This document shows, in pieces, positions 2,675 to 17,838 of a stretch of 64,000 nt of DNA. Numbering within the stretch: the first letter of the stretch is position 1; every line of letters starts with the position of its first letter. The notes beneath the pieces were generated by a model, which saw only the letters and a list, made by a program, of their open reading frames with translations, searched no databases and was not told the DNA's origin. Source of the stretch: an uncultured Lachnospiraceae bacterium (GTDB lineage Bacteria > Bacillota > Clostridia > Lachnospirales > Lachnospiraceae); assembly GCA_902801515.1 (NCBI GenBank), contig CADCII010000002.1, positions 96,076 to 160,075 of the forward strand, given 5' to 3'. A program made the position numbers and the translations under genes.

Positions 2675-5600
2675 TTATACCGCATCTTCCAGTTCCAGCT
2701 CATCGAGCAGCTTATAGATCTTATATTTCAAATATGCCTCATCTGTCATACCTGCCACGTCTGTCACGTCTGCCACGTCTGCCACATCTGTCCCATCTGT
2801 CTCATCTGGGCTGATGCTCCAGATCTGTCCCTTAAACCTCTCAACACTAAGTGGATTCCAGCTGTCCGGATCTACGCTCTTCCTGTCCTGATCGAACATA
2901 TTGGAGATGACCAGATTGCCGAATTCATCATAATATCCGTTCCATCCGGCCACACCGTATTCGTTGTTCACAAGCTTATTGTAGCGATCCAGGCGGCGTT
3001 CTGAGATCAGCCGGCCCCTCTCATCGTAACCGTATTCGATACTGGAATATCCCACACTGCAATTTACGGCAGCACCGAATTCGTCCAGGTATTTCTCCCA
3101 GGCAACATTATCGTTCTCATCGATTTTGTACTCGTAAACGGCATATCCGTCTGTCGTGAGGATCGGATTCCCGGATTGATCCGTATAGGTAATGTCATAT
3201 ATACCTGTCACCGGATAATACAGCATATTCCTGCCCCAGGCGTCGTTGTTCGCCTGCGTTGCGGCACCTTCCTCATCGAGGTAATACTCATGGTACTGTT
3301 CTACCGGCTCAATGCTGCTCAGATCATAGTCATAGCGGACCGCTGCGTATCCGAATCCGCTGTCCACAGGAAGGTCTCTCTGATCCAGCCAGGTCTTCAG
3401 TTCAATATTGCCATAGCCGTTGTAATCGTTCCGGATACCATACACGCCTTCCACCGCAGTCGGTTTTTCTTCATCGTCAAAGTAGTGAATCAGAGACACA
3501 TCCTTGCGTGAAGTGTACTCCATGACAGTCATATGGCAGCCCTCCGGTCCGTCCACCGGGTTGTCATCCGCGTCATACCAGCGGATCTCGAAGGAATTCT
3601 CATACCGGTCATACGTCTGCAGAGAATAAGCCCATCCTTCTCCCTCATCCACGGTCTCGTTTATGACCTTCATGACATAGGTCTGACTCTCTTTATCCTC
3701 TGATACCAGTTTCCTGCGGCTGTATCCGGCTTCGATCACAGCGGGCCTGCCGAATTCGTCCTTATAGTATTCTTCTTCTATGAGGCCGCTTTCGGTATAG
3801 CTGATCTTATGGGTGGCAAAGCCCTCCCGGCAGTTGACCGGCATATCCTCTTCATCCAAATACTCCTCGCTGATCAGACGGCCCAATTCATCAAAGTCAT
3901 TCAAAATGGCTGCATAGTGAACATCCTTCGATATGACACCCCGCCCCATGGTATCCAGATACCGTTCGGAAGTCAAATTGCCCAGACCGTCATAGGTATA
4001 CAGCGCTGTCGCATAGCCTAAAGTAGTATCTGTCAGGTTCTCTTTTGTGTCATAGTAAGACTCTTCCGTGACATTTCCAAACTCATTGTATACAGTCTTT
4101 TTGATAGCATATCCTCGCTGACACTCACACAGGTTCTCTCCTCGGTCATAATAACTCACCGAAGTCTCCCTGCCGGCCAGGTCATAAGTAAACCGGGCCT
4201 CGGCATACTGTCCGCTATAGAAAGTGGCGACGCCAAGCGTATCAAAGTACCGGATTGAGAGAACTCTTCCGTCCGGATCCACCTCGCGGTGCAGCCAGGA
4301 ATACTGGTCGTCAATGTGGATTGCCGGCTTTCCATCCATGTTCAGCAGATGCTCTTCGATGCAGTGGTTCCGGTCATCATAGGTGTAGATAACCTCACTG
4401 TAGCCATAACAGCACCAAGTTCTCTCACCCTCTTCGTTGTAATAGCTCTCGCTGATCAGGTTGTCACTGTTGTCATACTCAAAAGCTATAGCGGCATAGC
4501 CGGTATCCAGCACAATCGGACGACCTTCTTCATCCAGATATTCTATTCGGATATTGCGTCCTCTGTTATCCCATGATTTACGGATCACTGCGTATCCTAA
4601 CGAGCATGCGACCGGCTGGTCTTCCCGATCCAGATATGTCTCGGTCAGGATCCTGCCGTTCTTGTCAACCGTACGGAGTATCGCCGAGTAGCCGTCATTG
4701 ATATAAGTTCGCTCATACTTATCATCCAGATAGGTCACGCGGATCACATACTGGTTTTCATCATACAGATACTGCTGCGCGGCATATCCGTCTTTGGAGA
4801 TGATCGGCTGTCCTGACGTATCTATATACGTCATACTCAGGACCTGTCCACGGTCGCCGTACTCATAGCGTATCCCCGCATAACCTGCTGAGTTGAGTGC
4901 GGGCATACCTCGAACGTCCAGATAGTTCTCGCTTATCATCCTGTCATTGTCATCATACGTGTATGTGACCGAGGCGCAGCCCTGCCCGGTCTCCACCGGC
5001 TGCAAAGCTGCCGACAGGAAGTCTATGCGAATCAGGTTTCCCCGGGAGTCAAAGTGAGTTTGCGTCGTTGCAATACGGTCTGTCGTGGACGCGATACGCT
5101 CATTCTCATCCAGATACTGCTCAAGGATCACATGGTTGTTACTGTCGTATTCCCTCTTCCAGACAGAGAAGCCCTCCGGAACCCGGGTCAGTTTGTCATT
5201 CTCATTCAGGTAGCGCACCTGCAGGGTATTGCCTGCATTGTCATAAACATAGCCGATCGCGGAGTAACCCTTCTTGACCGTGATCCGGTTCATGTTTTCA
5301 TCCAGATAACTCTCCTGTACCATCCGGTTCAGAGAATCGTACTTATATTCCACAGCCGCATAGCCGCCTGTAATCATGACTTTTGTCTCATTCAGGTAAT
5401 AGACATTGCTGAGACAGTTATTCGCCGCGTCGTAGGTATGAACGATCCTGTTGTAGCCGTCGGCCAGCTCGGCCGGCTGTCCTTCAAAGATATACCAGGC
5501 CTCTTCCGTGCAGTTGCCATTATCATCCCGTACATAGGTAATATAACTCCAGCTGCTTTCCTGCAGGATGTATCTGCCGGTCTCACCAAAATACCCCTCG

Positions 5601-8600
5601 CTGGTCAGATTCCCCTGCTCATCCCAGGTCTGCACTTTCCGGGCATAGCCCCCTGCCGTAACGATCAGGTTACCGGCCCCATCGGAGAACTCCTCTGTCA
5701 ACAGATGGCCTGTCTCATCGTAAGTACACTCACGGAGCGCATAGCCCTTAGCAGAGATGACCGGTTCTCCCTTCAGGCCGAAATAAGCCTCTGTAAGAAC
5801 ATTGCCGTTGCTGTCGTAACTGTAGGTTACCGACGCATAGTCACCACGGTACATACAGGGGGCATCAGTCTCATCGAAGTACTTCTCAGAGAGAAGCCTG
5901 TCCTCATCGTCATATTCGCGCAGGATTTTTGCCACGCCGGCTCTGACACTCGTGATATTTCCGTCTTTTCCGTAGTAGACCTCGCTCACCGGATTTCCGT
6001 TCAGGTCATACTCTCGCACGAAGGAAGCATAGCCGTCCGGACACTCCGCCGGATCTCCGTCTGCATCGAAGTAGTGCTCTTCCAGCTCACGGCCATCCTC
6101 GTCCCAGGTATATTCCGCCCTCTGGTAACCAGCCGGGACAGTGACCGGTTTCAGATCTGCACCAAAGTAGGCAACGCTGATCCGGTTGCCCATATAGTCA
6201 TAAGTCTCTTCACAGCGTGCATATCCATCGACCGATTCGACTGGTTCCCGGTTCTCGTCCAGATACATAACTGCGGTTTGTACGCCGTTCTCATCGTATT
6301 CCCGGACCAGGACCGCATACCGGTCTTCATTGACGATCAGGCTACCGTCCGCATCGTAGTAGGCTTCTTCCAGGACATTCCCATAGGAATCACACTTCCG
6401 CGCAAACCAGGCATAACCCACCGAGCCAGGCATAACAGGTTCACCGTTTTCGTCAAAGTATGCCTTCCGAAGGAGATTCCCGTTCAGGTCATATTCCTGC
6501 TCAAAAGAAGCGTAGCCGTCCGTGCACAAGACCGGATTCCCGTCAGGATCCAGGTACTCGATCCGCCTTACAAGTCCGGTTCGTTCATCGTATTCCTGCC
6601 GGAAGGCAGCATAACCTTCCTTAATCATGACCGGCTCCAGATCTGTTCCAAAATATGCTTCGTAGATTACATGATGATGAACGTCGTATTCGCGTTCGAT
6701 ATGTGCCTTGCCGCTTACGAGCATCAGATCGCCTGCTGCATTGTAATAGGAGATCCTGATCCGGTTACCGCTCCTGTCATACACATAGCGGCGTGCGGCA
6801 TATCCATCCGGCTGGATCAGCGCTTCCCCACTGGCAGCAAAGTATCTGTCTCCGGTCAGGTGATCAGCAAAGTCATAAGAATGAACCTGTGCCGCATACT
6901 GACCTCCTGCCGTCACCATCCGACCATCTTCCCCGAGATAAATCTCCCAGAGCAGCCGCCCTTCCTCGTTGTATTCACGGCAGACGGATGCATACCCCTG
7001 GGCAATCCGGCCGGGATTCCCTTCCTGATCAAAATAGCTGGCGGATATCTGCTCCATATCCTTGTTGTAGTTGTAGAGTACCTTGTGAGCACCGGTGGAC
7101 ACGTTGGTATCAGGCCTACCGTTCGCATCAAAGAAAGATTCGGACATCAGCAGTTTCTGGCTCGGACCTTCATAGGTCATGCTCCGGGCATAGCAGCCGT
7201 TCTTTGCTTCCATCGGATTTCCGTCTTCGTCAAAGTATTCTTCATATACCGGTTGTGCATCCGCCTTCGTATCCCCGTATTCATAATGGATCGAAGCATA
7301 CTGCAGCTCATCACTGCGGGTCGGCTCCCAGTTTTCATCCATGAAGGTCACGCTTATGACCTGGCCGTATTCATTCCGCTCATTTACATATCCGGCGTAG
7401 CCCGCCTTCATATTGATCAGCTCCAGGTCCGTCCCGAAATACTTTTCCTGGCGGATCTGTTTCATTGCTTCTGACACCCGCTGATCCTTCTTCCAGCTGC
7501 TTCCTGGTACATCGGCAAACTTGTACTCGATTCGTGCCATGCTGTTTCCGGTCATGGTATATTCATCTTCCGTATCATACCAGGTGATGCGGTAGTCGAA
7601 GTCGTCTCCGTTGTATTCATACTCGGCGACGGAAAAGCCGTCTGTGATCATCGTCCTCTGGCCATCCGCACCATAATAAGTCTCGTAATGCTTCAGGTTC
7701 GAGTCCTCGTAGTATTCAAAAGTAACTTTCGCATACCCGCCCTCGACTTTGATCAATTGCCCATCGTCCCCGAGATAGTCTCTTTCAGTGATCCGATTGA
7801 GGCTGTCGTAGATGCATACCAGAGATGCGTATCCGTCCTCTGACAGGATCGGTTCCCCTTCTGTATCATAATAATCGGTCCGGATCAGGCTTCCGTTGTC
7901 ATTATATGTCTGCTCTCTGCGATGCCAGTGTTTTTTACCCAGTACCGGCTTTCCGTCTATTCCGAAGATCTCCTGCGTCGTAGACTGATATACAGAATAA
8001 TCCAGATTTTTCTCGATCATCTCGCCTTCCGGAACACCCAGCTTCTCTGCGAGATATTCTGCATCTTCCGTTCTGTCCGCATAGGCTTGTGCACTGTATT
8101 CCGACACGACTGTCGCACCGCCCTCCGTACCGATAAGCGGGGAGCCATCTTCATCCAGATATCGTTTGATGACAGAAAAAGCAGGGCCTTTCCCATCTTC
8201 GATCTCGTACAGAATCTGCGCGTACCCGCCGGATGGCCGGGTCAGGTTTCCTTCCGCGTCAAAGTATTCGGTTGACCGAAGATTCCCATCCTCCCAGGTA
8301 TCACGTCGATAACTGTAACCTCCCGGTATGTCAGCGCGGCTTCCATCTGCAGCATATCGGTCTTCCGTCATGACGCAGGTATGCCCCTGAGAGTCAGTAA
8401 AGTAGGTGTATTCTGACCGTGCGTAACCGGTATCGATCGTATCAACTGGCTCGCCATTCAGCCCATAATATTCTTCGGTCAGGATGTCACCGTATTCGTT
8501 CCTGGTATACTCCGCCTGATGGAAGCCTCTGGCGTTCATGGCCGGATTGCCTTCCAGATCACAAGTCGTCTCCCGGATCACATTCCCAGCCTGATCCCAT

Positions 8601-8788
8601 TCGCAGAAGGTCTCAGTCAGTTCCGGAAGCTGCAAATCGGAAGCCATGTTTACACTGGCTTCCTGTGCTGCCGTTTCCGTCGAGTTTCCTTCTCCCGTCC
8701 AGGCCGGAGTGATGCTTCCAATCGTAAGCCACAGGAAGATCGCTGCTGTGATCCCGGTTTTCTTATGTCTTGATACGAACTTATGCAT
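2675..8788 (-). CDS. Giant secreted YD/RHS-like repeat protein, about 2,037 residues
   Basis: I place the start at the ATG at 8788, giving a basic N-terminus and a hydrophobic segment (IFLWLTIGSITPAWTGE), a likely signal peptide; earlier in-frame ATGs would lie inside the kinase gene. Nearly all of the rest is roughly 55-60 tandem units of about 31-35 residues with the pattern GYA-x4-EYD-x2-GN-x3-E-x-Y-x-D-x2-G-x-PV. The units resemble YD/RHS repeats but no RHS core-domain or variable toxin tip is visible. The C-terminus ends in an acidic TD/AD repeat and a short helix, with no LPXTG sorting signal. No strong ribosome site precedes the start, so translation may couple to the kinase gene 19 nt upstream. 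Its place inside a glycan operon suggests a role in surface polymer assembly, binding or adhesion; that is inference. I do not recognise a named family. Confidence 0.85.
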   Translation of the reverse strand: MHKFVSRHKKTGITAAIFLWLTIGSITPAWTGEGNSTETAAQEASVNMASDLQLPELTETFCEWDQAGNVIRETTCDLEGNPAMNARGFHQAEYTRNEYGDILTEEYYGLNGEPVDTIDTGYARSEYTYFTDSQGHTCVMTEDRYAADGSRADIPGGYSYRRDTWEDGNLRSTEYFDAEGNLTRPSGGYAQILYEIEDGKGPAFSVIKRYLDEDGSPLIGTEGGATVVSEYSAQAYADRTEDAEYLAEKLGVPEGEMIEKNLDYSVYQSTTQEIFGIDGKPVLGKKHWHRREQTYNDNGSLIRTDYYDTEGEPILSEDGYASLVCIYDSLNRITERDYLGDDGQLIKVEGGYAKVTFEYYEDSNLKHYETYYGADGQRTMITDGFSVAEYEYNGDDFDYRITWYDTEDEYTMTGNSMARIEYKFADVPGSSWKKDQRVSEAMKQIRQEKYFGTDLELINMKAGYAGYVNERNEYGQVISVTFMDENWEPTRSDELQYASIHYEYGDTKADAQPVYEEYFDEDGNPMEAKNGCYARSMTYEGPSQKLLMSESFFDANGRPDTNVSTGAHKVLYNYNKDMEQISASYFDQEGNPGRIAQGYASVCREYNEEGRLLWEIYLGEDGRMVTAGGQYAAQVHSYDFADHLTGDRYFAASGEALIQPDGYAARRYVYDRSGNRIRISYYNAAGDLMLVSGKAHIEREYDVHHHVIYEAYFGTDLEPVMIKEGYAAFRQEYDERTGLVRRIEYLDPDGNPVLCTDGYASFEQEYDLNGNLLRKAYFDENGEPVMPGSVGYAWFARKCDSYGNVLEEAYYDADGSLIVNEDRYAVLVREYDENGVQTAVMYLDENREPVESVDGYARCEETYDYMGNRISVAYFGADLKPVTVPAGYQRAEYTWDEDGRELEEHYFDADGDPAECPDGYASFVREYDLNGNPVSEVYYGKDGNITSVRAGVAKILREYDDEDRLLSEKYFDETDAPCMYRGDYASVTYSYDSNGNVLTEAYFGLKGEPVISAKGYALRECTYDETGHLLTEEFSDGAGNLIVTAGGYARKVQTWDEQGNLTSEGYFGETGRYILQESSWSYITYVRDDNGNCTEEAWYIFEGQPAELADGYNRIVHTYDAANNCLSNVYYLNETKVMITGGYAAVEYKYDSLNRMVQESYLDENMNRITVKKGYSAIGYVYDNAGNTLQVRYLNENDKLTRVPEGFSVWKREYDSNNHVILEQYLDENERIASTTDRIATTQTHFDSRGNLIRIDFLSAALQPVETGQGCASVTYTYDDNDRMISENYLDVRGMPALNSAGYAGIRYEYGDRGQVLSMTYIDTSGQPIISKDGYAAQQYLYDENQYVIRVTYLDDKYERTYINDGYSAILRTVDKNGRILTETYLDREDQPVACSLGYAVIRKSWDNRGRNIRIEYLDEEGRPIVLDTGYAAIAFEYDNSDNLISESYYNEEGERTWCCYGYSEVIYTYDDRNHCIEEHLLNMDGKPAIHIDDQYSWLHREVDPDGRVLSIRYFDTLGVATFYSGQYAEARFTYDLAGRETSVSYYDRGENLCECQRGYAIKKTVYNEFGNVTEESYYDTKENLTDTTLGYATALYTYDGLGNLTSERYLDTMGRGVISKDVHYAAILNDFDELGRLISEEYLDEEDMPVNCREGFATHKISYTESGLIEEEYYKDEFGRPAVIEAGYSRRKLVSEDKESQTYVMKVINETVDEGEGWAYSLQTYDRYENSFEIRWYDADDNPVDGPEGCHMTVMEYTSRKDVSLIHYFDDEEKPTAVEGVYGIRNDYNGYGNIELKTWLDQRDLPVDSGFGYAAVRYDYDLSSIEPVEQYHEYYLDEEGAATQANNDAWGRNMLYYPVTGIYDITYTDQSGNPILTTDGYAVYEYKIDENDNVAWEKYLDEFGAAVNCSVGYSSIEYGYDERGRLISERRLDRYNKLVNNEYGVAGWNGYYDEFGNLVISNMFDQDRKSVDPDSWNPLSVERFKGQIWSISPDETDGTDVADVADVTDVAGMTDEAYLKYKIYKLLDELELEDAV
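2741..2803. repeat. 9-bp tandem minisatellite inside the giant gene
   Basis: Seven consecutive 9-bp units vary around GTCTGCCAC (plus-strand reading). On the coding strand they give three-residue repeats such as VAD and VTD near the C-terminus of the giant protein. Whole-unit gain or loss would keep the frame, so the number may vary between strains. Confidence 0.8.
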
Positions 8789-8807
8789 TATTCTGCTATC
8801 TGATTTC

Positions 8808-10355
8808 TTAATGAGTTTTTTTCCTGCCCCTGTGAGGCTTTCTCTTTCTTGGTTTCTCTGCCGGTGAGGCGGCATTCCGTAACTTAGCTGTTTGCTGCTG
8901 TGATTCTTGTACCTGTGCGGCCTGCGCCGTCTGTACAACATCCTCGGACGGATGTTTCCGATAGTCATATTTGCTGTAATAGCTCTTGTAGTACTTTCTC
9001 CTGTAGTACCCGCCTTCGTCGATCTTCTCTCCGTAGAATACAAAGCCCATCACATTCATACCGGTCATCTCCGCAGAGATCAGCGCTTTCCGGATGTCCC
9101 TGTGATCCGAATAGTTCTGCCTGATGACAAAGAGACAACCCGCCACCTGTGTAGACAGTGCTAACGGATCCGATACAATGTTGATCGGCGGCATATCCAG
9201 GAGCACCAGGTCGTACATCCCTTCGATTTCTTCCAAAAGCTTCTGCATAGTATCCGATGCCAGCAGTTCGGCAGGGTTCGGCGGGAACGCTCCGGCCGGA
9301 AGGATATCCAGGTTCTCTCTCACATTCCTCAGGATACAGTTCTGCAGGCTGCTCTCTCCAGCCAGAATCTCCGAGAGTCCTTTACTGTGTTTGTCATACT
9401 GGAAGATATCTCTCTGGCAGGCACGTCTGAGGTCACCTTCAATAAGCAGCGTCTTCTTTCCTCCCTGTGCACATGAGACTGCCAGATTCGCAGCGACCGT
9501 GGACTTGCCCTCTCCGCAGATGGCACTGGTGATCACCACCGAGCGGGATTTCTTTCCAACAAGGCTGTAAAGAAGATTCATGCGCAGTTTTGCATAGCTC
9601 TCCAACAACTCCAGGGGACTTAGATCTGTGAGCAGAAAAGCGCCGGGGTTATTCTCACTCCCCTTCGTCCTCTTGATCGAAGCAAGAACCGGAAACGTAT
9701 ATGCATCCGTCAGATCCTTGGAATCCGTGATTCTGCGGTTAAAAAGGAAGAGAAGAAGCAAAATCACGCCGCTCAGCATTACACCGACGACGGCTCCGAG
9801 CATCCCTCTATACACCGGCCGCCTGTTATCCTCATACATCGGTTCCATCGCATAGTCAATTACTTCTACGCTGCCGGCTCCGACGACGCGGATCAGCTCT
9901 TCCGGAGCCACATCCAGCACTGCATTGGTAATATCCATGGAAAGCTTTGGATCTGAAGTCGTGGAACTGACACTGACGACACCGGTTTCCGAGACAGAAG
10001 ACATATGCAGGCTGGACGCGATAAATCCCGGCATAATTCCGGGATAGTCTGCCGCCAGCCTGTCTGTCACCACTTCCATGACTTTGTTGCTCTTGACCAC
10101 GATCATGTAAGTATCAATCAGCTTGACTGCAGAATCCAGATCCATCGAGGTGGCGTACTGATAATTCACCAGGTTCGGGTTGCTGTTGTACACATACATT
10201 GTCCCGGACGCAGTGTAGGTAGTCGGCATGCGGTGAGTGGTGTTCCAGTAGCGCACGCCGAACCCGATCACGGCGCACAGAATCAGTATCCAGATCCGTT
10301 TCAGTACATACCGGATCAGTTTGAACAGGTCGATTCTGAATACGTTATTTTCCAT
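8808..10355 (-). CDS. Fused Wzz chain-length regulator and bacterial tyrosine kinase (CpsC-CpsD fusion)
   Basis: The 515-residue protein combines both halves of a polysaccharide co-polymerase. Residues about 20-37 and 184-205 are membrane helices enclosing a Wzz-type extracytoplasmic domain. The cytoplasmic half is a BY-kinase: Walker A GEGKST at 281-286, Walker A' LLIEGDLRR near 303, Walker B LVLLDMPP near 383. Near the C-terminus a cluster of seven tyrosines within about 20 residues is the expected autophosphorylation tail, followed by a very basic end. Firmicutes usually encode these halves as separate genes, so the fusion is notable. It heads the glycan operon, 19 nt before the giant repeat gene, and probably controls polymer length and export. 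GGAGG lies unusually far (about 14 nt) from the ATG. Confidence 0.9.
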   Translation of the reverse strand: MENNVFRIDLFKLIRYVLKRIWILILCAVIGFGVRYWNTTHRMPTTYTASGTMYVYNSNPNLVNYQYATSMDLDSAVKLIDTYMIVVKSNKVMEVVTDRLAADYPGIMPGFIASSLHMSSVSETGVVSVSSTTSDPKLSMDITNAVLDVAPEELIRVVGAGSVEVIDYAMEPMYEDNRRPVYRGMLGAVVGVMLSGVILLLLFLFNRRITDSKDLTDAYTFPVLASIKRTKGSENNPGAFLLTDLSPLELLESYAKLRMNLLYSLVGKKSRSVVITSAICGEGKSTVAANLAVSCAQGGKKTLLIEGDLRRACQRDIFQYDKHSKGLSEILAGESSLQNCILRNVRENLDILPAGAFPPNPAELLASDTMQKLLEEIEGMYDLVLLDMPPINIVSDPLALSTQVAGCLFVIRQNYSDHRDIRKALISAEMTGMNVMGFVFYGEKIDEGGYYRRKYYKSYYSKYDYRKHPSEDVVQTAQAAQVQESQQQTAKLRNAASPAEKPRKRKPHRGRKKTH

Positions 10356-10727: not shown

Positions 10728-12491
10728 CTAGAAATTCCGTACAATACTGTCAATTTCCTGCTGGTCCAGCCTGGTAATCCGTTTGTCGACGACCCGGTAT
10801 ACCCGGTCGCACATGGAGAGAACTGTCGGTCGATGAGTGGTGATAATGAAGGTCTTTCCCGGAGATTTCTGAAGAATGTTGCGAAGTACAGTTCGCTCTG
10901 TCTCCACATCCAGGGCACTGGTAGCTTCGTCCATCAACATGATTGGGGCGTCGCGAAGAAGAGCCCGCGCGATAGAGATGCGCTGCGCCTGGCCTTCAGA
11001 CAGACCTTTGCCCCGCTCATAGACGCTGTTGTTGATCCCGTCCGGAAGTTTCTCCACGAATTCCCAGGCGCAGGCAAGTTTCAGCGCTGCTGTGATCTCA
11101 TCGTCTGTCGCATCCTGTTTTGCCAGTCGCAGGTTTTCCGCGATCGTCCCACTGAGCATGGTATTGCCCTGAGGTACATATGAGATCAGTTGGCGGCTCT
11201 CGGCGCTGATCGTAAGAGGCTCTTCACTGTCATTCTCCGGCATGAAAGTACTGGTGCCGTCGCTTGGCTCAATAATTCCCAGCAGAAGTCTGAGAACGGT
11301 CGTCTTTCCTTCCCCGCTGGGACCTACCAGAGCGGTGATCTGTCCGGGATGGGCTTCGAAATCCGATGCCTCGATCACCATCTCATCTCCATCATCATAC
11401 TTGAAGTCCACCTGATCCAGTTTCAGCGTCAGACCGCCCTTGAAGTATTCAGCAGGGATTTCATTTTTATCATGCTTCTCTCTGGGAAGATTCATCAATT
11501 CCTGGATACGGTGTGCAGATACACTGCTGCTGATGAATCCGGGCACGATGCCTACCAGGCCATGAAAGGCACTGCTCAGAGCGCCTCGCTGCTGCAGAAA
11601 CAGCGTCATGGTACCATAGGTAATATGGCCGCCCCACAGCAGAAACAGAGCATATCCGTACGCCACATATTCGATCAGCAGACTCAGGATTGCCATGAAC
11701 ACATTCGTCCGGATCTGAAACATATTCCAGGCGAGGGTAATGCGCCGGTACTGCATCTGCAATTCCCGAAGCTGCAGACTGAATGAATCCATGATGCCGA
11801 AGCTCTTAACCGTATCCAGATTATACAGTGCTTCTGACTCAAAAGAGTACATCCGGCTGGTGGTCTCCATCATCTCCTTCCGATGCTCTTTCTGTTTCTT
11901 CACCAGATACCGGCTCATCAGCAGGATCACAGGTGCGCTGGACAGCGCAATCAGGCTCATCACCGGACTGTAATACCAGATCACGATAAAAGTACTGACG
12001 AAGCTGTAAACAGATATAATCACACCCGGCAGCCAGCTGATTGCATTGTCTGCGACGGTGCCAATATCTCCATGAAATCGGTTGAGTATATCACCGTTGG
12101 AAAACTGATTCAGCGACTGCCATCCGGCATCCATCACGCTGTCAAAGACATCACCGCGAATTGCATTGGTCATATCTACATTAAGTTTCTGGCGGATACG
12201 GCCAATCAGATTACTGATCGCAAGTGAGATAAGCGCGCTTCCAGCCATTATAAGAGCCGCCATCCAGAGCTGATCTGACTTATGACCGATTACCACATCC
12301 ACCAGGAACTTGCCGGCTACAGAAGACACCAGTCCCAGGGTACTGCTCAGTAAGCCCAGTACTGTATACGCTGCGATAGGACCCTTGAATCGTCTGGAAT
12401 AGGAGAAAATCCATTTCCAGTCCAGAAAGATTTCCCCAAAGGTATCGTTCTTCCAGCGTGTTTTAATCTGATTCAGAGTAAATGAATTCAT
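10728..12491 (-). CDS. ABC exporter, fused membrane and ATPase domains, likely peptide exporter
   Basis: The 587-residue half-transporter has an N-terminal six-helix ABC membrane domain (from about residue 30 to 320) and a C-terminal ATPase with Walker A GPSGEGKTT, signature LSEGQ and Walker B/catalytic Glu in IMLMDEATSAL, followed by the switch His in TTHRPT. It lacks an N-terminal C39 peptidase domain, so it is not expected to cut a leader itself. It is the last gene of the RiPP cluster, downstream of the Cys-rich precursor, and is probably the exporter of the mature product or a self-immunity pump. The ribosome site is weak (AAGG close to the ATG), consistent with low expression. A strong hairpin lies between it and the precursor gene. 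Confidence 0.9.
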   Translation of the reverse strand: MNSFTLNQIKTRWKNDTFGEIFLDWKWIFSYSRRFKGPIAAYTVLGLLSSTLGLVSSVAGKFLVDVVIGHKSDQLWMAALIMAGSALISLAISNLIGRIRQKLNVDMTNAIRGDVFDSVMDAGWQSLNQFSNGDILNRFHGDIGTVADNAISWLPGVIISVYSFVSTFIVIWYYSPVMSLIALSSAPVILLMSRYLVKKQKEHRKEMMETTSRMYSFESEALYNLDTVKSFGIMDSFSLQLRELQMQYRRITLAWNMFQIRTNVFMAILSLLIEYVAYGYALFLLWGGHITYGTMTLFLQQRGALSSAFHGLVGIVPGFISSSVSAHRIQELMNLPREKHDKNEIPAEYFKGGLTLKLDQVDFKYDDGDEMVIEASDFEAHPGQITALVGPSGEGKTTVLRLLLGIIEPSDGTSTFMPENDSEEPLTISAESRQLISYVPQGNTMLSGTIAENLRLAKQDATDDEITAALKLACAWEFVEKLPDGINNSVYERGKGLSEGQAQRISIARALLRDAPIMLMDEATSALDVETERTVLRNILQKSPGKTFIITTHRPTVLSMCDRVYRVVDKRITRLDQQEIDSIVRNF

Positions 12492-12621
12492 AACCTTATG
12501 CTATTCATGTAATAGAATCTGTTGATTATATTGTTTGTAATCAACATGGTCCTCAGTTTGAACCTTAGTCTGTATACCTGACAAAATTACTATAATGGAT
12601 TGTTCCGCCTGGTTCAATGAA

Positions 12622-12655
12622 ATAGCGTTTCCGGATATCAATCCGAAAACGCTAT
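12622..12655 (-). terminator. Strong hairpin between precursor and exporter genes (partial terminator or attenuator)
   Basis: Two 15-nt arms (ATAGCGTTTCCGGAT and ATCCGAAAACGCTAT) pair with a single imperfect position around a 4-nt loop, about 100 bp after the precursor stop. On the minus strand only a short T-rich tail follows (ATTTCATT). This resembles hairpins that keep structural-peptide mRNA abundant relative to exporter mRNA; that role is inferred. Confidence 0.6.
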
Positions 12656-12752
12656 AGTCTTCTTTCTGGCACTCACTTATGTAAGCCTTCTCATCATTGA
12701 ATGGAATGCATCAATTCTTCCTGGAAGCATTATATCCGCCGAAATACTGAAG

Positions 12753-13010
12753 TCAGAACATGCTGCAGGTCAGTTTCCAGGCAGCACAGCCATCTCCCAT
12801 AGAACCTGGGGGAGACGTTACATTCTGGCAATTCCCATTCGAGAAACTGCCGCATTTATAACCGGTAGAAGACCATGCAATATTATTGCATGAAACCCCC
12901 CTTGTATAGGAACCACAAGTAAAAGATCCGATTGGATTATCACCTGAACAGTATATAAACGAATCCATATCAAATTCCATCACTTCAGCTTCGGGCTTTA
13001 CGTATGTCAT
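12753..13010 (-). CDS. Cys-rich RiPP precursor peptide, 85 residues
   Basis: The ATG at 13010 has an excellent AAGGAG 6-nt upstream. The first about 20 residues (MTYVKPEAEVMEFDMDSFIY) look like a leader: charged, no signal peptide, with the K-P-x2-E-x3-F-D pattern. The remainder is rich in Gly, Ser, Asn and Cys, with seven Cys at 21, 32, 41, 53, 61, 75 and 82. Two segments repeat: FTCGSYTRGVSCNN (30-43) and YKCGSFSNGNCQN (51-63), so C32/C41 match C53/C61. Position between a PqqD-like carrier, a radical SAM/SPASM enzyme and an ABC exporter makes it the likely substrate of the cluster. It has its own promoter. No named precursor family was recognised; thioether (sacti- or ranthipeptide) crosslinking is the leading guess, not shown. 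Confidence 0.75.
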   Translation of the reverse strand: MTYVKPEAEVMEFDMDSFIYCSGDNPIGSFTCGSYTRGVSCNNIAWSSTGYKCGSFSNGNCQNVTSPPGSMGDGCAAWKLTCSMF

Positions 13011-13093
13011 ATTTGTCTCCTTATATCCATATATCCATCTCTATGGTGAATAGGAACCATCGAAGAACACTTGTAAATAAGTATATCAGATAA

Positions 13094-13122
13094 AGTGTAT
13101 CGTAGAAGAACTTTTTCGTCAA
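13094..13122 (-). promoter_or_regulatory. Promoter of the RiPP precursor gene
   Basis: TTGACG (13122-13117) and TACACT (13099-13094) on the minus strand are spaced by exactly 17 bp. The predicted start lies about 75 nt before the precursor ATG, in the 171-bp gap after the PqqD-like gene. A private promoter would let the peptide be made in excess over its enzymes. Confidence 0.6.
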
Positions 13123-13181
13123 GAGTATCATCAGATTGTGCAAAGTGCAAAGTACACTCCCGGCTTCGCAGATAGATTCCA

Positions 13182-13448
13182 TTATTCCTCCACTGCAAAT
13201 GCAACTCTGCCGAGGAACTCATCCAGGTCTTTTTCTGCAGTCTCCTGATCCAGATCTTCGTAGCGGTCAAGCATTGCCTGTATCAGCTTTTCCCTGCTGT
13301 CTGCCCCATCTTGGATACTCTGCCACAGAAAGGCTCCGCTCTCATTCAGGCGAATCACACCGTTGAAGTTCTTGCTGGCGTCTCCTACAGTAACCACGAT
13401 ATAACCGATCCCAAGTTTTTTGATGATAAATCCTTCTTTGATCTTCAT
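13182..13448 (-). CDS. PqqD-family peptide chaperone (RiPP recognition element)
   Basis: This 88-residue protein matches the PqqD winged-helix-like fold: an N-terminal strand pair (FIIKKLGIGYIVVTVG), the central NGVIRLNESGAFLWQSIQDG segment typical of the family, and a C-terminal helical part with the LIQAMLDRY and DLDEFLGRV helices. PqqD proteins bind the leader of a RiPP precursor and present it to a radical SAM enzyme. The ATG follows AAGGAG at good spacing. It lies directly upstream of the precursor gene and 18 nt after the kinase-like gene, as in many rSAM RiPP clusters. Binding to the leader at 12753-13010 is inferred. Confidence 0.88.
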   Translation of the reverse strand: MKIKEGFIIKKLGIGYIVVTVGDASKNFNGVIRLNESGAFLWQSIQDGADSREKLIQAMLDRYEDLDQETAEKDLDEFLGRVAFAVEE

Positions 13449-13466
13449 CCTGTCTCCTTCTTTCGT

Positions 13467-14276
13467 TCATATTCCAAAGTAATCAGCGGCCACCTCTGCT
13501 GCTGAGCTGTCATTGCGGCAGCGAAGCCGGTACATTGGTACTGTCTGTGCCATACGGTCGATCAGTTCCATCATTTTCAGCAAATCTACCTGTCCACCCT
13601 GAAGATGGAAGTGCTGCATCAATTCTCCCAGGTGTTCTGAGGCCTGCACCGGGAAGATGGAATTCTCCTCCCCTCTCTCCAACAGGCACAGGGCTTTAAG
13701 TGGTGCGCTGGTCCTTGTCTGCCAGTTCTCTTTTCCGCACCAGGGTGTTCCGTATGCGATAAGCTGATCCCCTCTGAATCTGCAGACCGGCTTGTCGCCG
13801 TTGATAACAGCAACCCGCTCTCCCAGCACTTCCTGCCAGTATCTTGTGTGGGTGCTCTTGCCGGTCCCGCTCTTTGCGGCGAAGGCATATGCCTGACCAT
13901 CAACAGCAACCACCGAAGCGTGCATGACGAAAGCATCGAAAGCAGGCAGTGCGTTGCTGATCTTCTCATAGGTTACCACGCCTTCAGCGTATGCGTCACT
14001 GAAAATAGAATCTGGTGCTTTCTCTCTCTCCTGACGAATCTCCTTCTCCGATACAGATATGGAGATATCAGCCAGGCGGAGATTGCATTCGGCTGTGTCT
14101 GCTGTCAGGATTGTACCTGCTGCCTGTGTCGTGTCTTTCTGCCCGTAATCATCCGCGGAAAAAGCTGCAGAGCTGTCTGAAAAATCCTCTATGATATATT
14201 CCCGGCACAGATCATGCACATAGCCATACCGATTCTCGATGCGGATCACCAGGCCGGCTATCTCAATTCGAAACAT
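13467..14276 (-). CDS. HPr-kinase-like P-loop protein of a RiPP cluster
   Basis: I choose the ATG at 14276 because GGGGAGG stands 6-7 nt before it; an upstream in-frame ATG at 14300 has no such site. The 269-residue protein has an N-terminal domain of unclear function and a C-terminal HPr kinase/phosphorylase-like domain: MHASVVAVDGQAYAFAAKS with Walker A SGTGKST near residues 137-142, then INGDKP and YGTPWCGKENW, which recur in these peptide-cluster homologues. Relatives in lasso-peptide clusters phosphorylate a Ser of the peptide, while others next to PqqD genes have no known role. The capsule for true HPr kinase is lacking: length, N-terminus and context differ. Peptide phosphorylation is a hypothesis; the precursor has a Ser third from its end. 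Confidence 0.8.
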   Translation of the reverse strand: MFRIEIAGLVIRIENRYGYVHDLCREYIIEDFSDSSAAFSADDYGQKDTTQAAGTILTADTAECNLRLADISISVSEKEIRQEREKAPDSIFSDAYAEGVVTYEKISNALPAFDAFVMHASVVAVDGQAYAFAAKSGTGKSTHTRYWQEVLGERVAVINGDKPVCRFRGDQLIAYGTPWCGKENWQTRTSAPLKALCLLERGEENSIFPVQASEHLGELMQHFHLQGGQVDLLKMMELIDRMAQTVPMYRLRCRNDSSAAEVAADYFGI

Positions 14277-14308
14277 CCGCTGCCTCCCCTTGCTCTTCAT
14301 ACAAATGA

Positions 14309-15370
14309 CTATCTGCCTGTTAAAATACTGAATTTCTTATTTTTTGCTGCCAGTTTTTGGTACAGCAATATTACCAGGAAATAGAATGCCAGGCTGATAA
14401 ACAGCAGCGGATACTCTACCCAACGCAGATTTACCCCGATTCGTCTTCCCACAAAATTATAGACTCTCCTGGCATAAATATTGGTTGTAATATTCAGCCC
14501 CATTACAATAATCGAATATCTTCCAAAAGTGCAGAACAGATCTTTGAGGTACAATGTATGCATCGATCTGCATATCCACATCAGGGCACAGCTCATCAAT
14601 GCCACCTGGAATATGAATATCAGCAGATCCTTTCCATACTGTCTGAAATACATATCTGTATTGCCGTTCCACATGATGATCATACTTGCTGCTATGATCA
14701 TCAAAACAGGCACTCTCATGGTCTGAATCTTATCTAACAGCCGCTTTTCTTTGATATAGTATCCGATCAGCATAAATACGGAACCGATCAGTGCCACGTC
14801 CAGATGCCAGGGCAATAACGGCGCTTCGAAATAGTACGTTACATAATTTATCGCAATGAAAACTACCGCCAAAACACATTGCCACATTGGTTTACAGTTA
14901 ACAAGCAGATAGAATGCCAGCTGGCTCAGGAATAAACATGTTAAAAACCACAGTGCAGTACAGTTTTGCGGAAGAAATACCCCATCAACCCGAATGCTGG
15001 TAGCGATCCATCCAAGATTTTTAATCGCCGTCAGCAGCATGTCACTGTGACGATTATTAAAATAAAATATAGGAAAATTGATAACAAAACAGATCGCACA
15101 CCAAAGGAAATACGGAATAACGTAATTCCTGAACCGGGCTGCTGCAAACTTCCCAAACCCTCTTTCAGACCACTTTTGCCTGTTGAAAAGGAAACCTGAC
15201 AATACGAAGAAAAGCGGTACATGAAAGCCGAATATCCATTTAGTGAGAGGACGCCAGATCAAAGCATGCCCGGCAACCATCAAAACGATACCTATCCCGC
15301 GAAGATAATCGATCCATTCTTCTCTTTGCTTTATTCCATTCGTATTGGTTTTTTCCTGCAGTAAAGACAT
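14309..15370 (-). CDS. Acyltransferase family 3 membrane protein
   Basis: About 353 residues with ten or so membrane helices. Near the N-terminus are family signatures YLRGIGIVLMVAGHALIW (with the catalytic-type His), FHVPLFFVLSGFLF and FRNYVIPYFLW. These integral enzymes move an acetyl or other acyl group from a cytoplasmic donor to an extracytoplasmic sugar or peptide. The ATG at 15370 has GGAG about 10 nt upstream; a TTG start at 15397 is possible but lacks one. The gene lies between the radical SAM enzyme and the kinase-like gene, all on one strand, so it may acylate the peptide. Because a glycan operon lies nearby, acylation of surface polysaccharide is the alternative. Confidence 0.85.
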   Translation of the reverse strand: MSLLQEKTNTNGIKQREEWIDYLRGIGIVLMVAGHALIWRPLTKWIFGFHVPLFFVLSGFLFNRQKWSERGFGKFAAARFRNYVIPYFLWCAICFVINFPIFYFNNRHSDMLLTAIKNLGWIATSIRVDGVFLPQNCTALWFLTCLFLSQLAFYLLVNCKPMWQCVLAVVFIAINYVTYYFEAPLLPWHLDVALIGSVFMLIGYYIKEKRLLDKIQTMRVPVLMIIAASMIIMWNGNTDMYFRQYGKDLLIFIFQVALMSCALMWICRSMHTLYLKDLFCTFGRYSIIVMGLNITTNIYARRVYNFVGRRIGVNLRWVEYPLLFISLAFYFLVILLYQKLAAKNKKFSILTGR

Positions 15371-15462
15371 TTTCTTTAATCTCCATGTGCTTTCCAATCT
15401 TTATGTATGTGTACGCTGGATAACACATAATATCCGTAATTATACCTGTGATCGCATCGCCC

Positions 15463-16905
15463 TCACTGCCTCTGGTCTTTCTCCTTCTGTTTCTGGGCTT
15501 TCTGCTCCTGAAAGATCTGGTATACGATACGAAGTTCTCGCTCCAGTTTTCGTTTCTCCTGCCGGTAACATGCGTCATATTCCGTACGGTTGGGACAGCG
15601 GTCGAACTCTGTGCAATGGGGAAGGAATACACAGCCTGTACATTCCTCCCGTACTCCGCAGGGAGCAGCCACCTTGTCCCACGCCTCCTGGTTAATACCT
15701 GTCTTCACATCGCCATAATGCATGTTTTCGGGCATGGCATCACAGGCGTACAGGTCTCCTTCTGCATCGATCAACACGTTGCATTCCGGAGCGGTTACCA
15801 TACAGTAGTGAGACTTGAAGGTAAACAGTTCTCCGAGGTCAAACGGCATCAGCCCCTGGCGATGGATGTAATCATTTATCTCCAGCACCCGCTCTTCCAG
15901 AGTGTCGCTCCCGGCATCCGCCGGACAGGCGTCCAGGCCTTCTCCCTGCTGTGCGAACAGCGAGTGTGCATACACCTGCAGCCGCTTCTTCTCTTCTTCG
16001 CTGAATTCATTTTTCAGGAAATCCACCACCCGGAAGATCTCTCCCAGGTTCTTCTCATCCACATTCAGGCGCACGGTCACGCCGATCCCTTCCGCCCGCA
16101 GCAGATGCATGCTTCGGATCACTGCTGCAAATGGATCCTTCAGAGCGGCTGTATAGCGCTTGCGTTTTTCGTATTCTTCGGCCATTCCGTCCAGAGTGAT
16201 CTGGATCTTTTCGACCTTCCAGTCTTCTGCTGCCTTCTTCGCAAGCTCTTCGGTAAACAGACTGCCATTACTGGTCATTTCTGCCGTATATTCGATCCCG
16301 GCATCCTTCAGTCCTGCGCAGATGCGGTCGATGTTGTCCCATGCGCACAGGGGTTCTCCTCCGAACCAGTGGATATGGATTTTTTTGTCATCTGCCGGCT
16401 TGTGTTCCAGAATAAACCGCAGTGTATCTTCTACCGTCTCTCTGCTCATCTTATGATACTTCATTCCCTGCTCGAAACAGTAGAAGCATCTGGCATTGCA
16501 GGTAGTGGTGGGCAGGATCACGTAATGGGTGATACCCTTCGGAAGTTCTTCCTTGAGCACCAGGATATCCTTAAGTTCCAGGTAGGTGCGGCTCTCCTGT
16601 TCATCCTCCGGAACCAGGAAATGATCCGCATACAGTTTAGCAGGAATCTCTTCCTCCAGCACAGAGGACGGAAAGAGTCTGTCGTCCGCAAAGTAGTCGA
16701 TGTACTTCGGCTCCAGAAGCAGGATCTTGCGCGTCAGGGTATGGAACAGCAGATACTGCCCTTTTATGTACATGACATGCACAAAGCAGCTTCTGCGGAT
16801 GTTCTTATCTTCTGCCGGTTTCTTCTGCGCACCCAGCAGCATGCAGGCGCGCGGGTCGCCTGGGCACAGGCACTCTGCGATATTGTTATCTTTACGATCG
16901 TTCAT
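15463..16905 (-). CDS. Radical SAM/SPASM peptide maturase
   Basis: This 480-residue enzyme opens the RiPP operon. The radical SAM cluster motif C-x3-C-x2-C is at 136, 140 and 143 (CNARCFYC), followed by HWFGGEPL (the GGE motif that helps bind SAM) near 179-186. The C-terminal SPASM region has Cys at 368, 375, 388, 416, 422, 425, 431, 437 and 446, enough for two auxiliary 4Fe-4S clusters. The N-terminal 130 residues contain three more Cys (12, 14, 21) and may include a peptide-binding element. Related enzymes install thioether or C-C crosslinks in Cys-rich peptides. A Lys/Gln-rich tail ends the protein. Its likely substrate is the seven-Cys precursor at 12753-13010. The start has only a weak ribosome site (GGATAAAG). 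Confidence 0.92.
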   Translation of the reverse strand: MNDRKDNNIAECLCPGDPRACMLLGAQKKPAEDKNIRRSCFVHVMYIKGQYLLFHTLTRKILLLEPKYIDYFADDRLFPSSVLEEEIPAKLYADHFLVPEDEQESRTYLELKDILVLKEELPKGITHYVILPTTTCNARCFYCFEQGMKYHKMSRETVEDTLRFILEHKPADDKKIHIHWFGGEPLCAWDNIDRICAGLKDAGIEYTAEMTSNGSLFTEELAKKAAEDWKVEKIQITLDGMAEEYEKRKRYTAALKDPFAAVIRSMHLLRAEGIGVTVRLNVDEKNLGEIFRVVDFLKNEFSEEEKKRLQVYAHSLFAQQGEGLDACPADAGSDTLEERVLEINDYIHRQGLMPFDLGELFTFKSHYCMVTAPECNVLIDAEGDLYACDAMPENMHYGDVKTGINQEAWDKVAAPCGVREECTGCVFLPHCTEFDRCPNRTEYDACYRQEKRKLERELRIVYQIFQEQKAQKQKEKDQRQ

Positions 16906-17005
16906 ATTTTCGCTTTATCCATTCCGATTCTCTTACTGGTGCTGCGTCAATCTGTCAGCGTGTGAGTCATCCAGGCTGTTATCTTCTCCTGTCTGTTATC
17001 GGATA

Positions 17006-17034
17006 ATTATATAGGATTAGTCCCCTTCATACAA
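17006..17034 (-). promoter_or_regulatory. Promoter of the radical SAM operon
   Basis: On the minus strand TTGTAT (17034-17029) and a perfect TATAAT (17011-17006) are separated by 17 bp. The leader to the enzyme start is about 95 nt. No other gene start lies between. Confidence 0.65.
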
Positions 17035-17050
17035 CGGTAACGAACAAACA

Positions 17051-17098
17051 AAACAACCAGATATATACCCGCTCTGTGCCGGTATCTCCTGGTTGTTT
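17051..17098. terminator. Terminator between kdpE and the RiPP operon
   Basis: AAACAACCAG (17051-17060) pairs with CTGGTTGTTT, and the stem extends inward through ATA-ACC/GGT-TAT. On the minus strand the stem is followed by TGTTTGTTC, so it ends the potassium operon, whose last stop codon is about 40 bp before it. Confidence 0.75.
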
Positions 17099-17136
17099 CT
17101 GTTGTTATTATGTTTATTGCGGTTCCGCACACCTTC

Positions 17137-17838
17137 TCACAGCTTCACCATTCTGTACCCGATCCCTACATGTGTCTGGATCATGGGTTCTCTCTCCTGG
17201 CTGCTGAGTTTCCTCCGAAGAGTCGTCACGACTACGCGCAGTGTGGCCATGTTGTTCTCCCAGCTGCTCCCCCAGATGTTCTGGGTGATGTACTTGTAGG
17301 TCAGTACTTTGCCGGTGTTTTTCGCAAGAAGGCACAGCAGGCGGTATTCGGTCTGCGTCAGGTGCAGTTCTTCCTCATTCAGGAACACGGTGTGCGCGGC
17401 GTAATCGATCTTCAGTCCGGCGTTCACATATATGGAGGATTCTTTTCCTGCCAGATTCTCCAGATAGTTCAGGCGCCGGAATGTGACACGGAGCCGGGCG
17501 AGGAGTTCTTCCACAGAGAATGGTTTTGTGATATAGTCGTCCGCCCCTGCATCAAGGGCTCCGATCTTGTCCGTGTCGTCGCTGCGCGCACTGATTACCA
17601 GGATCGGTGCCTGTGACCAGGACCGTACCTGGCGGATTACTTCTGTCCCGTCCATGTCCGGGAGCCCCAGGTCCAGAAGCAGGATCGAGGGGTTGTAGGA
17701 GGATGCCATCATCAGCGCCTCTGTCCCGTTCACTGCTTCCAGGTAGGAATAGCCGTGCATCTTCAGTGTTGTCGCTATCAGGTTCCGTACCGGTTTGTCG
17801 TCTTCGACAACCAGTATCTTAGATGTTTCCGTTTCCAT
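17137..17838 (-). CDS. kdpE: KdpE-type response regulator (OmpR family)
   Basis: A 233-residue regulator with a receiver domain (acidic pair EDD near residues 12-14, phospho-acceptor Asp in LLLDLGLPDMDG, conserved Lys in ITKPF) and a C-terminal winged helix (LTQTEYRLLCLLAKNTGKVLT, then the recognition helix and wing RVVVTTLRRKL). It overlaps the kinase gene by 20 bp. In related bacteria KdpDE controls the Kdp ATPase in response to potassium limitation; here no kdpFABC is present and the pair follows ktrB-ktrA, so it probably controls the Ktr system or genes elsewhere. Confidence 0.9.
   Translation of the reverse strand: METETSKILVVEDDKPVRNLIATTLKMHGYSYLEAVNGTEALMMASSYNPSILLLDLGLPDMDGTEVIRQVRSWSQAPILVISARSDDTDKIGALDAGADDYITKPFSVEELLARLRVTFRRLNYLENLAGKESSIYVNAGLKIDYAAHTVFLNEEELHLTQTEYRLLCLLAKNTGKVLTYKYITQNIWGSSWENNMATLRVVVTTLRRKLSSQEREPMIQTHVGIGYRMVKL

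Follow-up and report, generated by a model that had tools for sequence, protein, structure and literature searches.

A rare radical SAM cluster from a Lachnospiraceae bacterium that probably makes a sulfur-bridged peptide, with a C-x-x-Phi spacing rule in its precursors

What does a bacterium make from a short Cys-rich gene that lies among genes for a radical SAM enzyme and a leader-binding protein? The question is raised by a gene cluster in 64,000 nucleotides (the window, by which we mean this whole stretch) of contig CADCII010000002.1, assembly GCA_902801515.1, from an uncultured Lachnospiraceae bacterium. Three genes, all on the - strand, are central to the answer: a radical SAM/SPASM peptide maturase (15463..16905; 480 aa; Pfam Radical_SAM 58.1 bits, cut-off 29.5), a putative PqqD-type leader-binding protein (13182..13448; 88 aa), whose Pfam PqqD score of 53.1 bits against a gathering cut-off of 23.4 places it among the recognition elements of ribosomally synthesized and post-translationally modified peptides (RiPPs), and a Cys-rich precursor peptide (12753..13010; 85 aa, seven Cys) that matches no NCBIfam or Pfam model up to E 1. 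The earlier note on this DNA had proposed that these three form a RiPP system, and our analysis supports it: judged by its proteins, the cluster represents a new RiPP family, scoring below the cut-offs of all the NCBIfam models that we list here. We also find a feature that the note does not mention. In the precursor and its close relatives every core Cys is followed, three residues on, by an aromatic or branched residue, and this C-x-x-Phi rule is, as far as the sequences can tell, the strongest clue to the chemistry. Based on these data, we propose that the product is probably an exported peptide held together by several sulfur bridges.

The gene set is not a chance assembly, because a like precursor adjoining like radical SAM and PqqD genes recurs in other genomes. 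A scan of genome contigs with the HPr-kinase-like protein of the cluster gave six loci; A2, a radical SAM profile made from five sequences (the window and four of these loci) and run around their genomes, added three close members (L048 in genome G1173, L052 in G1344 and L075 in G1422). Counting as close those radical SAM relatives that score above 800 bits (observed 806-991; the next relative, L049, scores 416), we find the gene in eight genomes, those of the window, L008, L009, L010, L011, L048, L052 and L075. Two loci from the first scan, L012 and L013, each carry a kinase-like gene, and L013 a PqqD gene as well; they are excluded from the eight because their genomes hold no close radical SAM gene. 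A PqqD-type gene adjoins the close radical SAM gene in all eight loci, and a precursor is visible at seven, so that the small gene is conserved beside the radical SAM gene, the point on which the earlier note had staked its proposal. The exception is L010, where no precursor was found on a contig that stops 156 bases past the last gene. An exporter follows in six of the eight loci (the window, L048, L052 and L075 by tblastn, L009 and L011 by reading of open reading frames (ORFs)), and the contigs of L008 and L010 stop before any exporter position. Gene order varies: L052 has the order of the window, minus the acyltransferase and plus a second precursor; the precursor stands 5' of the radical SAM gene in L009, L011, L048 and L075; and in L008 it stands at the end of the cluster, following a peptidase-like gene.

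The system is also rare. Among 397 genomes of its own family the close radical SAM gene occurs only in its own genome, and draws around the relatives gave 2/120, 1/116, 3/120, 4/190 and 2/190 close members (centres and overlaps included). Distant radical SAM relatives are present in 8 of the 397 genomes, own genome not counted; we left these aside, since a tblastn search of their loci with three window proteins (kinase-like, PqqD and precursor) gave no match. A PqqD profile matches weakly at two of these loci, L029 and L030. Precursor searches of 61, 392 and 391 genomes (overlapping draws) returned a strong match in the own genome alone and weak ones (E 0.0004-0.0024) in G039, G024, G298 and G440. 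The radical SAM protein has no match among plasmids at E 1e-40, a precursor pattern run on viral contigs gave 25 matches and zero relatives, and three precursors have no match in PHROG.

The window precursor, with AGGAG placed six bases ahead of its ATG, consists of a leader, MTYVKPEAEVMEFDMDSFIY, and a core of six units, CGSY CNNI CGSF CQNV CAAW CSMF. Precursors of the same type in L009, L011, L048 and L075 are 68-75% identical to it, and all five share six of the seven Cys; at the position of C21, L011 has Cys and L009, L048 and L075 have Thr. For four of these precursors (L075 excluded), the ratio of nonsynonymous to synonymous differences (pN/pS) is 0.17-0.36 in all 6 pairs, and identity is 0.73-0.86 in the core versus 0.50-0.68 in the leader. 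By this measure of sequence change, the precursor is under purifying selection. The leader consensus is M-K/T-Y-x-K-P-E-x-E-V-V-x-F-D. In L052 there are two precursors (90 and 86 aa) and in L008 a single one; their leaders are like that of the window, but their cores are not. The L008 precursor (11592-11884) has its leader in one frame and its core in another, the two joining at a run of T, which may reflect faulty assembly or a genuine lesion; only the Cys of the core frame were counted. Separately, a C-terminal stretch of the second L052 precursor (6124-6384), GGYTFVSRGNNKGQHWQLQ, resembles a short Cys-free ORF in L009 (2859-3011) that sits between the PqqD gene and the exporter.

The spacing rule was tested in the four distinct cores (window, L008, L052a and L052b), with Phi taken as F, Y, W, I, V, L or M. 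A Phi residue stands at +3 of the Cys in 22 of 22 cases (F, Y or W in 20), and the next best offset accounts for only 7 of 22. When the cores were shuffled with composition kept, none of 20,000 shuffles reached 22 at any of 16 offsets, and the maximum was 14. When all eight cores are taken together (five are close relatives), the rule holds for each of the 46 core Cys, with Y21 F9 W6 I6 V4 at +3. Leu and Met never occur there (0/46), though the two together account for 20 of the 525 core residues. Polar residues were rejected as partners at a fixed offset: Asp/Asn/Glu/Gln and Ser/Thr each score 0/22 at +3 and reach at best 7/19 and 9/22, respectively, elsewhere.

The radical SAM enzyme is consistent with a peptide maturase that acts on such a core. 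It has a CxxxCxxC motif (C136/C140/C143) and nine later Cys, read by eye as SPASM-type, all of which are invariant in the five members aligned (A2). Its best NCBIfam match is TIGR04463 (137.4 bits, cut-off 525, residues 43-438); RiPP and peptide maturases, among them PapB, head the best 25 of the 58 NCBIfam matches, and MoaA and other enzymes that act on non-peptide substrates score far lower. Among solved chains, the nearest in sequence is 5wgg (E 4e-11), which we take to be the SCIFF maturase CteB. We propose a route in which the PqqD-type protein captures the precursor by its conserved leader and delivers it to the radical SAM/SPASM enzyme. Working along the core, the enzyme would join the six conserved Cys, each to the residue at its +3 position. 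The product would hold six small C-x-x-Phi thioether rings, each with the loss of 2 Da (-12 Da in total), and would be released by the ABC exporter. For the precursor at full length, the calculated monoisotopic mass is 9095.82 before modification and 9083.73 once six crosslinks are in place. Taken whole, and with the kinase-like gene as a putative tailoring or helper factor, either optional or altered, this is the explanation that we favour, with moderate confidence. Attachment at the beta carbon of the +3 residue appears likeliest, because the C-beta hydrogen of Tyr, Phe, Trp, Ile and Val is weak (benzylic or tertiary), and Leu and Met have no such hydrogen and do not appear at +3. A more tentative suggestion starts from the fact that these acceptors, unlike the Asn, Thr and Asp of ranthipeptides in excerpts of PMC8326336, carry no amide, hydroxyl or acid group next to that carbon: the rule (benzylic or tertiary C-beta only) would then predict the chemistry by itself. 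The link from Cys to +3 is proposed by analogy with the freyrasin enzyme, which, according to excerpts of PMC8326336 and PMC9413430, makes six Cys-Asp thioethers at the beta carbon in CX3D motifs. In L049, the nearest outside relative (radical SAM proteins 41% identical), Asp stands at +3 for 3/3 Cys, as if the same position held an Asp acceptor as in freyrasin.

Several observations weigh against this proposal. The predicted structure of the radical SAM enzyme is poor (pLDDT, the predicted local distance difference test, 52.2), so the model was left unused and we draw no argument from the active site. Five Cys, none of which fits the rule, lie at or before the border between leader and core as we set it and were for that reason excluded from the 46. 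They are C21 of the window precursor and its counterpart in L011, each with Asp at +3, and a further three in L008: two upstream of the core in the counted frame (Ser, Asp) and one in the leader frame (Glu). The L052b core has two C-x-x-Phi units only, and two L008 units (CTGYD, CSNYD) also fit CX3D, the PapB motif. Gly at -3 is the sole other clear preference (13/22 in the four cores, 25/46 in the eight); as a universal partner it was rejected, at 25/46 versus 46/46 for +3. The residues at +3 are mixed in distant precursors, which like that of L049 were chosen by eye: D, L, S, E in L050; L, E in L051; K in L053; G, S, P in the second cluster of L052; and D, S, D, Y, C, V in L029. Because these five distant relatives are mixed, we confine the rule to the close radical SAM family. 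Lastly, the set of +3 residues fits a link to the alpha carbon equally well. In that case, the main rival to a beta link, the same enzyme would join each Cys to the alpha carbon of its +3 residue and form small unnested sactionine rings as in sactipeptides, and the hydrophobic and aromatic acceptors of known sactipeptides, Met, Tyr and Phe in excerpts of PMC8326336, speak for it. However, alpha chemistry has no evident need to bar Leu and Met, yet neither occurs at any of the 46 positions, and the NCBIfam neighbours of the enzyme include the ranthipeptide maturase PapB (94.1 bits), with 5wgg as the closest solved chain; on balance we regard an alpha link as somewhat unlikely. A quite improbable alternative is that the enzyme alters the aromatic residues themselves, for example by carbon-carbon or ring links, and that the Cys form disulfides or bind metal. 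Aromatic residues do make up 36 of the 46 at +3, and there are radical SAM enzymes with Tyr or Trp as their target (excerpts of PMC8326336). Yet two of the six units of window-type precursors have Ile or Val, which carry no ring, at +3 in 5/5 precursors, and the register is locked to Cys, with no offset besides +3 standing out except Gly at -3.

The explanations that remain concern the other genes of the cluster. An HPr-kinase-like gene (13467..14300, -; 277 aa, aligned from the ATG at 14276) encodes a protein with no Pfam match over cut-off, whose best NCBIfam score is to TIGR04249 ScmC (25.8 bits, cut-off 125). Its structural model (pLDDT 84.9) finds Lactobacillus casei HprK/P as best Foldseek match (1kkm_B; E 1.9e-06, prob 1.00, TMt 0.46), and by this model the protein has an HPr-kinase fold. 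The fold speaks for a phosphorylated, acylated peptide on which the kinase-like and acyltransferase proteins would both act, as do kinase-like genes at the more distant loci L049-L053 and the precedent of BsfK, an HPr-kinase-like protein that, in excerpts of PMC10368454, phosphorylates a lasso precursor faster with a discrete leader-binding protein. By that analogy a PqqD-assisted kinase is a reasonable idea for a putative activity. Residues H119, K140 (the Walker A Lys) and D161 (numbered from the ATG at 14276) are invariant in the seven members aligned (A3). However, all seven have Gly (G160) in place of the first Asp of an Asp-Asp pair, and both Asp mattered in BsfK (same excerpts); like proteins at L014, in the own genome, and at L053 carry Asp-Asp. 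The gene is full-length in six of the eight close loci and a remnant upstream of the precursor in L048 (4496-4597) and L075 (6076-6335), where precursor, radical SAM, PqqD and exporter genes are intact; the L048 genome holds other kinase-like genes (the L075 genome was not searched). Kinase activity is thus uncertain. The acyltransferase-3 gene (14309..15397, -; 362 aa; Pfam Acyl_transf_3 84.0 bits, cut-off 31) is present in only one of the eight close loci and has a GC content of 40.9%, versus 52.4% and 52.6% in the flanking genes, which suggests an insertion; a tblastn search at E up to 1, covering the loci collected to that point, found copies of the window only. From this distribution and base composition the gene is probably a bystander and not part of the system, so that the acyl groups envisaged in the earlier note were not borne out and acylation was rejected as a component. 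A phosphorylated, acylated peptide is therefore unlikely in our judgement. We see even less of a case for a peptide that acts at the cell surface, its cluster, acyltransferase included, working alongside neighbouring exopolysaccharide genes: capsule-type genes are close to the window cluster (by eye), to L008 and to the distant L051 (Pfam CpsB_CapC for both), but by eye none was recognised beside L011, L048 or L075, where no family search was run.

As the earlier note had stated, the five biosynthetic genes and an exporter share one strand. The transcription order on the - strand is radical SAM, acyltransferase, HPr-kinase-like, PqqD, Cys-rich peptide and ABC exporter, the last (10728..12491; 587 aa; Pfam ABC_membrane 93.4 and ABC_tran 90.4 bits) being a predicted one that falls outside the region the note had covered. 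Peptidase C39 is not among its Pfam hits; the exporters of L048, L052 and L075 are 74-83% identical to it. The two promoters described in the note are indeed there as strings, TTGACG-17-TACACT at 13122..13094 and TTGTAT-17-TATAAT at 17034..17006, but they carry no evidential weight. A scan of 12400..17200 found 9 promoter-like sites versus 8.5 (sd 3.1) in shuffles, a count no higher than chance, and promoters were rejected as evidence; the first string is one of the 9 sites and the second is absent from the list.

The surroundings hold further genes. Wzz/Wze-like genes of capsule or exopolysaccharide type lie at 8808-10355 of the window (by eye), and capsule-type genes elsewhere at L008 7738-8442 and L051 5608-6333 (Pfam CpsB_CapC) and at L010 3644-4348 (by eye). 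An ORF of 2122 aa with many similar repeats and an uncertain start spans window positions 2675-9043. A peptidase S24-like gene follows the PqqD gene in L008 (11007-11435; Pfam 22.1 bits, cut-off 23.3) and L010 (7159-7602, by likeness); it is a candidate leader protease and was not seen in the window cluster. The own genome has more clusters, at L014 (G000:C2:53000-72000; 5184-6611 and 12235-15183) and L016 (G000:C71; 3019-6319), with kinase-like and PqqD genes, signal-peptidase-like genes (by eye), another kind of radical SAM gene, and short peptides with a leader of Y-x-x-P type. Distant relatives with radical SAM, PqqD and kinase-like genes encode peptide pairs, one short and Cys-bearing and one with a Gly-Gly-type leader (L052 14020-14424, L050 7893-8359).

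How does the cluster compare with known systems? The kind is a known one, a radical SAM RiPP with a separate recognition protein that is ranthipeptide-like, and ranthipeptides are the nearest kind: as in these, a radical SAM/SPASM maturase adjoins a Cys-rich precursor. Like freyrasin and PapB, as far as the excerpts of PMC8326336 and PMC9413430 describe them, the system has one radical SAM enzyme for several (here proposed) thioethers and a Cys-rich peptide. It differs in its C-x-x-Phi units with Tyr, Phe, Trp, Ile and Val, where the ranthipeptide acceptors in those excerpts of PMC8326336 are Asn, Thr and Asp, and in its separate PqqD protein and kinase-like gene. The enzyme scores 94.1 bits against the PapB model NF047865 (cut-off 340), and the CX3D (or E) motif finds Asp at +4 of only two of the 46 core Cys, both in L008. 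The nearest solved chain, 5wgg, presumably points to the SCIFF/CteB systems. These also pair a clostridial Cys-rich peptide with a radical SAM maturase (excerpts of PMC8326336), but the score to TIGR03974 is 51 bits against a cut-off of 425. TIGR04463 (rSAM_vs_C_rich), a radical SAM/SPASM RiPP maturase model, is the best NCBIfam match of the window enzyme and still far from its cut-off, and we found no paper under that name in the open-licence PMC literature. Lasso clusters of the BsfA type share a discrete leader-binding protein and an HPr-kinase-like gene (excerpts of PMC10368454), but here Gly-Asp replaces Asp-Asp, and among the six cluster proteins NCBIfam and Pfam show no lasso cyclase or leader peptidase. 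The SynChlorMet cassette, whose names include radical SAM proteins, supplies the ScmC model that the kinase-like protein resembles at a sub-threshold score, and the radical SAM enzyme scores 49.6 bits against the ScmE cut-off of 400. We found neither this gene set nor a C-x-x-aromatic radical SAM precursor, nor any paper that combines HprK, PqqD and radical SAM, in the open-licence PMC literature, which is weak evidence of absence from print.

That the core is so well conserved speaks, if mildly, for a constant target or a signal or structural role and against an antibiotic that evolves fast (the searches did not extend to immunity genes). As a sequence rule, C-x-x-[Y/F/W/I/V] is simple, can be put to the test and predicts the site of every crosslink. 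If the proposal is true, the radical SAM enzyme would place many tight thioether rings at aromatic or branched residues, which would be useful chemistry, and its products would be a new family of bacterial peptides.

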